DNA of 64,000 nucleotides from Verrucomicrobiaceae bacterium (lineage in GTDB: Bacteria; Verrucomicrobiota; Verrucomicrobiia; Verrucomicrobiales; Verrucomicrobiaceae). Made by a program: the position numbers and the translations under genes. The DNA is taken from contig JAIBCL010000018.1 in NCBI GenBank assembly GCA_019694165.1, positions 1 to 64,000 on the forward strand, given 5' to 3'. The notes beneath the pieces were generated by a model that worked only from the letters and a program-made list of their open reading frames with translations, ran no database searches and was not told the DNA's origin. Shown piece after piece: positions 4,171 to 37,430 of the stretch (the stretch's first letter is position 1; every line of letters starts with the position of its first letter).

Positions 4171-4301
4171 CTGATTTCATCGGAGACCGGGAACGTGCTG
4201 TTGACCAACCCGGTCCGAGGAACGGGTGTCGCTCAGGACGGCACCGGCATGCCTTGGGGACGCGTGCAACGTAGAAGCAGCCCTGCCAAACAAAAAGGAA
4301 G

Positions 4302-4720
4302 GTGGGTCGGCCTTCATAAGCCGGATTCTGTTCTCCCCGGCCCTTGCGGACCGTGAGCGCGGTCATTTGTCTGGCGGACCTCGCGGTCCGGCTCCCGCAT
4401 AGCGCAGGATGCGACTATTACCCGGAGTCATACCCTCTGACGAGGGAGCGGGCGGGCCGCCCTTTCTCCTGTTTTGTCTTGCACCTCATGGGGTTTGTCG
4501 TGCCTCCTTCCTTGCGGTCGGAGCGGTGGGCTCTTACCCCGCCGTTTCACCCTTGCCGCGCTTGCGCGAGGCGGTCTGATTCTCTGTGACACTATCCGTT
4601 GCCCAGGCTTTCGCCAAAGGCCCCCGAAGCTTGCGCCCGGCATGATGCCCTGTGGTGTCCGGACTTTCCTCTCGTCCGCAGGCCTTGCGACCTCGACGAG
4701 CGACCACTCCGGCCGACCCG
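4302..4720 (-). ncRNA. rnpB: RNase P RNA, bacterial type A
   Basis: The catalytic RNA of RNase P, which removes 5' leaders from pre-tRNA. On the minus strand the 5' part carries the conserved GAGGAAAGTCCGGAC (about 4676-4662), followed by ACAGGG and, at the 3' end, GAACAGAATCCGGCTTA, the two universally conserved P4 blocks. The 5' end GGGTCGGCC (from about 4719) pairs with GGCCGACC at 4310-4303 to form helix P1, which fixes both ends. Internal blocks typical of type A RNA are visible: GGGTGAAACGGCGGGGTAAG and the AGAGGGTATGACTCC region. Length is about 418 nt, usual for the family. Several overlapping reading frames here are spurious. Confidence 0.95.
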
Positions 4721-31293: not shown

Positions 31294-31451
31294 CGAATTC
31301 CAATCAAAGCGCGGAATCGCCGCACCGCCAGCGGGAGCATCGACACCCGCAAAATGGCGGCCGCGCCTTTGATGGACCGGCAGCTGTGATGGCCGGGCGG
31401 TGAATTGGCGTTGAGCGCAAGATGTTGCCGTGAATGCGGGTATGGTCGGGC

Positions 31452-32519
31452 ATGTTGTATCAGAAGCCGTTGGACGCATTCGCCTGTAGGGACGGGGCGT
31501 TTTGCCGCCGCCGCCAGTTTCTGACGAGCGCCTCGGCGGGCTTTGGCATGCTGGCGCTGCGTGCGATGGCAGGCGTGCCGTTTCATCAGCGAGCGAAGGC
31601 GAAGAACATCATCTTCTGCTTCATGGACGGCGGGCCGAGCCATGTGGACACGTTTGATCCGAAGCCGATGCTCAAAAAGCACGAGGGCAAGGCCATCGGG
31701 GAGAGCGCGGTGACGAAGCGCTCGCAGTCGAACGCAGGGCGCGTGTGGTTTGGCAGTCCGTGGGAGTTCAAGCAGCGCGGGCAGAGCGGCCTGTGGGTGA
31801 GCGAGCTGTTCCCGCACATCGCGCAGGTCGCTGACAAGCTCTGCGTGGTGCGCTCGATGGTCGGCGAGCTTCCGTTGCATGGTCAGCAGAACCTGTTGCT
31901 GCACACCAGGCGCCGAGCTTTGGCGCGTGGGTGTCGTATGGACTCGGCACGGAGAACGCAAACCTGCCCGGCGACGTCGTGCTGAACAATGACTGGGTGC
32001 CAAATGGCGGCCTCGAGAACTTTGGCAGCTCGTTTTTGCCCGCGAGTCATCAGGCGACGCTCCTCCGCGCGAAGGGCGTGCCGGTGGATAACATCGCGCC
32101 GCAGGACGCTGCGGCCATGCAGCGCCGCAAACTCGCGCTCATCGCCGGGCAGGATGCTGAGTTCGCCGCGAACACATCGGATGCGCGGGCTTCTCGACGA
32201 AACCATCGTTTTGTGGGCCGGTGAGATGGGCCGCACGCCGCACACGCCAAAAGTCACCGACACCTGCGGCCGCGATCATCATGTGAACGGCTACTCGAAC
32301 TTCATCTCCGGTGGTGGCTTCAAGGGCGGCATCGCCTTTGGTGAAACGGATGAGTTCGGCAACGCCGTCGTCAGCCAACCGCTCGACATTCACGACATCC
32401 ACGCCACGCTGCTGCACCAGATGGGCATCAACCACGAGAAGCTCACATTCCGACATGGCGGTCGAGATCACCGCCTCACGGATGTGAGCGGGCGGGTGAT
32501 TCGTGAGCTGCTGGCGTGA
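31452..32519 (+). pseudogene. DUF1501 gene with two deletions and frameshifts
   Basis: The first part (31452-~31903) encodes a Tat-type start (CRRRQFLTSASAGFGML), the DUF1501 hallmark FCFMDGGPSHVDTFDPKP, and then GQSGLWVSELFPHIAQVAD. At LLLHT a deletion shifts the frame; the next frame continues APSFGAWVSYGLGTENANLP up to LALIAGQDAEFAA. A second, larger deletion near 32165-32185 removes roughly 170 residues. A third segment resumes with GLLDETIVLWAGEMGRTP, GRDHHVNGYSNF and HDIHATLLHQMGINHEKL and runs to the stop at 32519. Intact relatives have about 450-490 residues; the intact paralogue at 41911-43404 shows what is missing. No cytochrome partner gene adjoins it. Confidence 0.8.
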
Positions 32520-35577: not shown

Positions 35578-36693
35578 TCAAGGAACAGTGAGCACCACCG
35601 CATGAGCCTCCGCCAGCGTCGGCACCTCGACTTTCTCCGCCAGACGCCGAATCACACTCTCGGGCACCGAAGCATCGCGCTCCTTGTTTTGCTTCAAGAC
35701 CGTGCTCAGCGGCGGCTCCAGATAGACGATCTCCACTCGCGCTCCGTAGTCGGCAAACAGATCGATCCATCGCTTCCGAAGCTGCGCGGTGATGTTCGTG
35801 GCGTTGAACGCGAAGTCGCGACGCGCGCGCAAGTGCTCGCGGCATTGCTCGCGCGCGGTCTGGATGACGGTGCCCTGATTGTCCGTGGCATCGACATCGA
35901 GTTCCTCACGCACGGCATCGAGCGATACGACAGGCAGATCAGGCCGCTCGTGAGCAAGCCAGGTGTCCTTGCCCGCACCAGGCAGCCCGCTCATCAGCGT
36001 CACCGTGCAGCGATAGTCTTCGTGCGGTGTGTAGTGCAAGCTCGTGAGTTCATCGCGATAGAACAGGAACCGCGCTTGATCATTGGCGAACGCATAGCCG
36101 CTCGTGAAACAGCCGTGCTCGGTCGCCGTGTCGCGCCAGAGATGAAGTGTGTCCTCCGGGCGGGACATTTCTTTGCTCGTGCGTCCGCGTGTGTCAGCGA
36201 GAGCGAAGAGGTAGAGCAGCTTGTTCGACAGCAACCATGACAAACGAATCACCTCGCGCTCGGGATCGCGAGACTCCAACAAGTAAGGTGGACGGCCATG
36301 ATAGCGCACCAGATTCACGATGTGCTCGCGCGTGGGCAGATCACACTTCAACTCACGCAGCACCTCGCGTGCGAGCATCGCACCGACCAGCGAGTGCTTC
36401 GGCGAACGTGTGCGTCCGGTCTCAGGATCAATGATCGTCGTCGCTGGCTTCCCAGCGTCGTGCAGCAGCGCTACGAAGAGCAGCATCACTTGCTCATCAC
36501 GAGCTAGCGTTGCGTAGCTATCGAGTCGTGTGACTTGATCGAACACCATGCCTGTGTGCGTCCACACATCGCCCTCGGCATGCCACTCCGCGTCCTGCAT
36601 GCAGGCGCGCATCGGCCCGGCCCAGGCTTGCGAACCAGCCCAGCGCAGGATGTCCGCATCCGCGGCACCCAGCATGTCAGCCCACGTTCTCAT
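35578..36693 (-). CDS. HD-domain phosphatase/polynucleotide kinase (HD-Pnk type)
   Basis: A 371-residue two-domain end-healing enzyme. Residues ~35-165 form an HD phosphohydrolase domain: WTHTG (His46), LLHDAGKP (His78-Asp79), [14 protein letters not shown] (His100) and VRYHGRPP. Residues ~229-371 form a P-loop polynucleotide kinase with [10 protein letters not shown] (235-244), SLDAVREEL (Asp259 and Arg262, the Dx2R motif), NATNIT and a lid segment [13 protein letters not shown]. The same order, HD phosphatase then 5'-OH kinase, is that of Runella slithyformis HD-Pnk, which removes 2',3'-phosphates and phosphorylates 5'-OH ends. It overlaps the RNA ligase gene upstream by four bases (ATGA). 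Together they could heal and seal cleaved RNA. Confidence 0.87.
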
Positions 36694-37430
36694 GACCAGA
36701 TGTCTGCGTCGGGAGCGAGCTGGTTCGGCACCATCTGCTGATGCTGCCAGTGCTCGCTCTGTTTCACCTTCTCGACAAACTCCGGCCGCACGATCTTCGC
36801 GCGCCCTGTCGCTTTGCCATCCGCTTCGATGCGCAGATACAAGCCCTCCATGCGCGCATCCATCTTTCCGGTGAGCGGATTCTCAAACTGCGCACCAAAC
36901 GCCGATTCGCTGATCAACGCCTGCAACTCATCTTGCTTCGCCTTGCCCTGATGCACCACCGGCACGGTGTGAATGCCCGTGCCGTCGAGCAATTCCAGCC
37001 GTCGCTCCAGCGAGAGGAAGCAGGACGCTTCTTTGTCATAGATGTCGAACTCGAAGAAGTAATGCGGCAGGGCGGTGTAGAACACGCTGTGCTTCGCATA
37101 CAGCCACTCGCCAAAGAGGATGAACCGGTCCGCGAGCATCGCCTCCAGCTCCGCTCGCTTCACCGCCACCCATTGCTTGAATAGATCATACTGCGGATGC
37201 ATCCCCTCCGCGATCTCGTGCCCGCGACACTGTAAAACCATGCGTCCCGTGCTCAGGAAGTGAATGCCGACATTCGTCCCGTCGAGCTTCTCTTCCACAA
37301 TCAACGACGTATCCGCGATGAACGCCGCCGAGTCCTTCGCGTTCATATGGCGGTCATCATCCGTGCCCTTCGAACCAAAGAGGTGCGGGGTGCGCGGGTA
37401 TTTGATGAAGCTGTCCGTGGAAGCGCCCAT
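36690..37430 (-). CDS. ATP-dependent RNA ligase family protein
   Basis: A 246-residue covalent nucleotidyltransferase. After [17 protein letters not shown], a start typical of this bacterial ligase group, come all core motifs. These are motif [11 protein letters not shown] (adenylylated Lys48), motif [17 protein letters not shown], motif IIIa YFFEFDIYD, motif [11 protein letters not shown] and motif [10 protein letters not shown]. The size suggests a minimal Rnl2-like ligase with a short C-terminal tail. ATG 37430 is chosen because the longer frame adds 40 atypical residues. Its stop overlaps the start of the HD-kinase gene, so ligase and healing enzyme are made together, consistent with an RNA repair pathway, for instance of tRNA cut by anticodon nucleases. 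The in vivo target is unknown. Confidence 0.88.

Follow-up and report, generated by a model that had tools for sequence, protein, structure and literature searches.

The 64,000-nucleotide stretch of Verrucomicrobiaceae DNA that we analysed, referred to below as the window, carries two overlapping genes on its minus strand whose products are predicted to mend broken nucleic acid ends. The first gene (36690-37430, minus strand; start ATG at 37430, stop codon at 36690-36692) encodes an ATP-dependent RNA ligase of 246 amino acids, assigned by its PF09414 match, its motif residues and its predicted fold. The second (35578-36693, minus strand; ATG at 36693, stop at 35578) encodes HD-Pnk, a protein of 371 amino acids in which Pfam matches, residues and fold identify an N-terminal HD phosphoesterase and a C-terminal P-loop 5'-OH kinase. 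The ligase stop and the HD-Pnk start share an ATGA at 36690-36693 on the minus strand, just as the first-pass annotation of this DNA had read it, and the two genes overlap in 22 of the 27 loci measured, the window included (21 of 26 relatives). Overlap and orientation suggest that both genes are transcribed together; a simple scan for a sigma-70-like promoter serving the pair found none, where 0.7 would be expected by chance. The immediate flanks of the pair are an esterase gene (PF20434) upstream and a gene for a LamG-like protein (PF13385) downstream, followed farther out by DUF1501, PSD1/PSCyt2, YhcH and amino-acid permease genes, and none of these neighbours bears on nucleic-acid repair. 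We likewise saw neither rtcB nor hen1 adjoining the pair in the window, and no nuclease or toxin gene, which agrees with the earlier description of the cassette. An Rfam scan of the window returned RNase P only, a bacterial class A RNA (RF00010, 169.7 bits) at 4299-4720 on the minus strand, far from the pair. The DUF1501 gene (31434-32519, plus strand) seems to be split across overlapping reading frames: only the first fifth of the family is covered by the frame at 31434-31985, and later frames seem to carry on, possibly reflecting a frameshift or a pseudogene.

The ligase matches the RNA_ligase family (PF09414) with an E-value of 1.3e-35 and 123.5 bits against a cut-off of 27, and it is the single PF09414 protein encoded in this genome. 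In line with the first-pass annotation, which had credited the ligase with all nucleotidyltransferase motifs, I, III, IIIa, IV and V are present, with K48 (in EEKLDGTN), R69, E108, E195 and K212 as motif residues; across 28 relatives the motif residues are invariant or nearly so, and K48, D50, G51, N53, R69, E108, E195, K212 and R215 are strictly invariant. The same alignment supports the start codon at 37430, since M1 and G2 are invariant as well. An AlphaFold2 model of the protein (pLDDT 90) has its closest folds in Naegleria Rnl, Trypanosoma brucei RNA editing ligase 1, archaeal Rnl and T4 Rnl2, with TM scores of about 0.5-0.6 by query; the matches are mostly RNA ligases, which rank above DNA ligases. 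The ligase consists of the nucleotidyltransferase domain only, its chain ending 31 residues past the motif V sequence RAKIVR, and with no C-terminal accessory domain it falls outside the T4 Rnl2 subfamily sensu stricto.

HD-Pnk bears out the proposal of an HD phosphatase joined to a P-loop kinase downstream of the ligase, with the motifs and coordinates as first read and with Pfam matches to HD (PF01966, 5e-7) and AAA_33 (2e-22). It has the full N-terminal HD histidine and aspartate set, and its kinase domain has the Walker lysine, the catalytic aspartate, the DxxR arginine and the lid arginine. In an alignment of 29 sequences, 28 of them from Verrucomicrobiota and Planctomycetota and one from the Cytophagales, the metal-binding set (H46, H78, D79, H100, H132, D167) and the kinase residues (K242, D259, R262, R339) are invariant; the six metal-binding residues are also matched in a protein of phage RM378. 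The predicted structure (pLDDT 92) finds polynucleotide kinases first in a fold search, and its kinase residues align with those of Clostridium Pnkp, whose kinase domain scores a TM of 0.73 by target. By analogy with characterised relatives we predict that HD-Pnk removes 2',3'-cyclic phosphates and phosphorylates 5'-OH ends. The best PDB sequence matches are instead L-seryl-tRNA(Sec) kinase and the HD domain of poly A polymerase, and the protein scores close to the HD domains of CCA-adding enzymes, as might be expected if it acted on small molecules or at another tRNA step and the ligase were a mere neighbour. We regard this explanation as very improbable, given that the best fold matches are polynucleotide kinases, that domain order and residues are those of Deinococcus radiodurans DRB0098, a proven polynucleotide kinase (PMC1997131), and that HD-Pnk and the ligase are strictly paired.

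This pairing is apparent at several phylogenetic scales. Full HD-Pnk matches occur in 13 of 59 sampled Verrucomicrobiaceae genomes, so the pair is patchy in the family (about a fifth of the sample); these 13 and no others have a close ligase, adjacent in every case, which upholds the conserved co-occurrence and order that had been put forward as a check. In two of the 13, both draft genomes, apparent frameshifts split a gene of the pair, the ligase in G017 and HD-Pnk in G018. Separately, six short patterns run against 84,980 species genomes yielded 25 loci, in 22 of which the ligase lies directly upstream of HD-Pnk. The remaining three are a locus at a contig edge (L054), whose genome has two further ligase/HD-Pnk loci, one of them cut by a contig end; a Cytophagales HD-Pnk (L055; 39% identity) without an adjacent ligase; and a fragment (L056). 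The Cytophagales gene adjoins another HD-domain protein (HD plus HD_assoc_2; L055:1115-3640). Across the phylum, 3 of 195 genomes encode a full HD-Pnk, each with an adjacent ligase, one of which is very divergent. Moreover, the protein distances of ligase and HD-Pnk co-vary (r=0.82; none of 5000 permutations was as high, the best reaching 0.35), with the species history shared by both contributing to this value. Nearly all family genomes also gave weak HD matches (E about 1e-8 to 1e-11), which we did not count as HD-Pnk because they cover only about 100 HD residues, mostly in open frames of about 440-520 amino acids; NCBIfam and PDB matches indicate that these are probably CCA-adding tRNA nucleotidyltransferases.

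When 391 neighbouring open reading frames were clustered, rtcB alone, at two loci, was seen to recur directly beside the pair. The window genome has its rtcB on another contig (C7), and the pair itself does not represent RtcB-type repair, its sealing partner being the PF09414 ligase. In two soil relatives (L038 and L039) RtcB directly follows HD-Pnk, its ATG in L038 lying 1 nt past the HD-Pnk stop; these loci (from L038:7112 onward, and just after L039:2995) have the appearance of three-gene operons with two kinds of RNA ligase. Within the family, RtcB occurs in 12 of 13 genomes with the pair versus 27 of 46 without it, which argues that the pair is no substitute for RtcB, although genome size may confound this comparison; the window genome measures 7.8 Mb. 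At a further locus (L056:745-2898) an HD-Pnk fragment of about 125 matched residues adjoins a convergent rtcB gene, in a 7.3-Mb metagenome-assembled genome labelled Akkermansia muciniphila, a size at odds with the label.

Taken together, the domains and residues, the fold matches, the pairing in 13 of 13 genomes, the co-variation and the presence of ligases beside HD-Pnk in other phyla and in an uncultured phage lead us to favour, with reasonable though limited confidence, a general heal-and-seal repair unit with RNA as its main substrate. Gene content, residues, folds and conserved pairing were observed here directly, and the chemistry that we attach to them is extrapolated from characterised relatives. 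Breakage by a nuclease or by chemistry would produce one end with a 2',3'-cyclic phosphate or a 3'-phosphate and another with a 5'-OH. Removal of the 3' phosphate by the HD domain would expose a 3'-OH, accompanied on RNA by a 2'-OH, and phosphorylation of the 5'-OH would fall to the P-loop domain. The small ligase would then take AMP onto K48, pass it to the 5'-phosphate and join this end to the 3'-OH, while the ATGA overlap may allow co-translation and so keep the partners together. The likeliest main substrate would be RNA, perhaps cleaved tRNA or something similar. We favour RNA because of the Pfam RNA_ligase family, the RNA-ligase fold matches and the RtcB-linked relatives, and we consider it the least certain part of our reading.

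What is known of D. radiodurans bears on this choice from both sides. Its HD-Pnk has demonstrated 5'-OH kinase activity (PMC1997131), whereas its ligase DRB0100 becomes adenylylated but alone sealed neither DNA nor RNA, and DNA ligation was not seen when the operon partners were added (PMC1997131). We count this failure to seal, together with the missing accessory domain of the window ligase, against the heal-and-seal reading on RNA. Alternatively, the pair could serve the DNA damage response by mending broken DNA, or mixed DNA/RNA, strands that end in 3'-phosphate and 5'-OH. DRB0098 phosphorylates 5'-OH ends of DNA (PMC1997131), the DRB0098-DRB0100 operon is strongly induced by irradiation (PMC1978522), and according to the title of a 2018 J. 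Bacteriol. paper, as given in the reference list of PMC9146567, HD-Pnk helps D. radiodurans to resist ionizing radiation and mitomycin C; to the extent that a title can, this keeps DNA breaks in view. Disruption of DRB0100, however, left radiation survival unchanged (PMC1978522), the window ligase matches RNA ligases first by both profile and fold, and an alignment of 17 regions upstream of the ligase revealed no conserved regulatory motif. We therefore hold repair of DNA to be a serious but rather unlikely explanation. Both Verrucomicrobiota and Planctomycetota yield repeated examples of the pair, which would lend itself well to deciding between RNA and DNA as the substrate of HD-Pnk pairs.

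A possible connection to defence, which the first-pass annotation had suggested looking for near homologues, was found only at one remove: the loci that we read show no recurrent defence gene next to the pair, but a sister lineage of the ligase adjoins the candidate system HEC-03. Profile searches recovered six more distant ligases (G154, G217, G062, G247, G013 and G004), all of which stand in three-gene rows of an AAA ATPase (HEC-03B), the small HEC-03A and the ligase; HEC-03A appears PIN-like by eye and has no Pfam match. The HEC-03 assignment comes from PADLOC for the proteins of two loci (L069 and L077), and the other rows were joined to these by similarity or by a genome search with HEC-03A. 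The rows lie in six Verrucomicrobiota genomes (L067, L068, L069, L070, L077 and L078; for example L077:5800-8377), with a BREX-type helicase beside one and a PglX-type methyltransferase beside another. At one other HEC-03 locus (L097), which lies close to the start of its contig, no ligase was seen. The HEC-03-linked ligases group in a single clade (support 100/100), sister to the ligase of the pair. PADLOC gives no model for them, and they may be an unlisted component of HEC-03; these rows point concretely to a possible defence unit with a ligase of its own. Could the pair itself then be a defence-linked antidote, reversing RNA cleavage by an anticodon nuclease of the cell or of an invader? 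The sister clade as third gene beside HEC-03A and HEC-03B at six loci and the patchy occurrence of the pair (13 of 59 family genomes) would fit such a role, which we nonetheless judge improbable: genes for nucleases, toxins or defence do not recur next to the pair, whose neighbours vary among relatives, and the sister ligases come without HD-Pnk. In addition, PADLOC matched neither protein of the pair (P0001 and P0002) to an HEC-03 model, the flanking genes differ, and an HEC-03A search of the window genome returned no match. Returning to the general repair unit that we prefer, we can speculate, with little more conviction, that a common stock of ligases has been traded between general RNA repair (the HD-Pnk pair) and defence (the AAA/PIN-like/ligase units). 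On this view the pair would carry out, on its own, the repair side of a cycle of RNA damage and repair; where rtcB is adjacent, in some Verrucomicrobiota from soil, it would belong to a three-gene operon offering two routes of RNA repair.

The division of labour between a healing and a sealing enzyme places the window pair alongside several named systems. T4 Pnkp and the ligases Rnl1 and Rnl2 divide the work into two steps, as the pair is predicted to do, and the window ligase has an Rnl2-like nucleotidyltransferase domain. The T4 phosphatase is a C-terminal domain of HAD type, and Rnl2 of T4 carries an additional C-terminal domain that the window ligase lacks. Clostridium thermocellum Pnkp is similar to window HD-Pnk in kinase fold and residues, and heal-then-seal logic is common to both. 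In the Clostridium Pnkp/Hen1 system, 3' healing is performed by a calcineurin-type phosphoesterase that shares one polypeptide with the ligase, and Hen1 is added; the window pair has an HD domain instead, a separate ligase and no Hen1, and is thus not a Pnkp-Hen1 system. Closer in kind is the HD-Pnk of Runella slithyformis, which has the same bifunctional architecture as the window protein; in work by Munir and Shuman in 2017 it was reportedly characterised biochemically, with HD-Pnk genes said to lie frequently in operons with a putative ATP-dependent ligase. In the alignment of 29 sequences its place was taken by the Cytophagales HD-Pnk (L055).

For the alignment of catalytic residues, which had been named as the check that could overturn the first reading, we used the D. 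radiodurans proteins as reference in place of Runella HD-Pnk, and the residues proved to be in register for both enzymes. DRB0098 shares the domain order of window HD-Pnk, to which it is 32.6% identical over 89%. All six HD positions align, as do K, D and R of the kinase; the lid arginine is ambiguous, with R375 aligned here and R371 the residue mutated in PMC1997131. DRB0100, which like the window ligase is encoded upstream of HD-Pnk, is very divergent from it (about 28% identity) and did not seal in vitro (PMC1997131), yet the lysine and the R, E, E, K and R that follow, including residues of motifs I, IV and V, are in register, and motif IIIa differs. The minimal window-type ligase is intact in its motifs, unlike this very divergent, non-sealing enzyme. 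The D. radiodurans operon also differs in having a macro-domain gene between the HD-Pnk and ligase genes, and about 2 kb from it the plasmid pMP1 encodes a second, separately annotated RNA ligase (ATP) (L089:7266-8294).

HD-Pnk homologues are further encoded on plasmids of Bosea, Rhizobium, Pseudomonas, Variovorax, Deinococcus and a cyanobacterium, and in the phages RM378 and an uncultured one with a 462-kb genome. An "RNA ligase family protein" stands beside HD-Pnk in Bosea, P. aeruginosa and D. radiodurans (in the last with the macro-domain gene between), and an unannotated or "hypothetical" ligase does so in Sphaerospermopsis and the uncultured phage; we detected no neighbouring ligase for the HD-Pnk of Miltoncostaea, Pseudomonas sp. 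Leaf58 or RM378. The plasmid pairs of Bosea sp. RAC05 and Pseudomonas aeruginosa pF051, annotated as "RNA ligase family protein" and "AAA family ATPase", have the identical gene order and no macro gene, and differ from the window pair in a gap of 15 to 164 bp as annotated, without overlap, and in sequence (35-41% identity). The D. radiodurans operon DRB0098-DRB0100 was described in 2005 (PMC1274311) and 2007 (PMC1997131). Given these plasmid pairs and the published operon, the suggestion that a complete two-gene unit is unusual does not hold: the window pair is a further example of a described repair pair and nothing new in kind.
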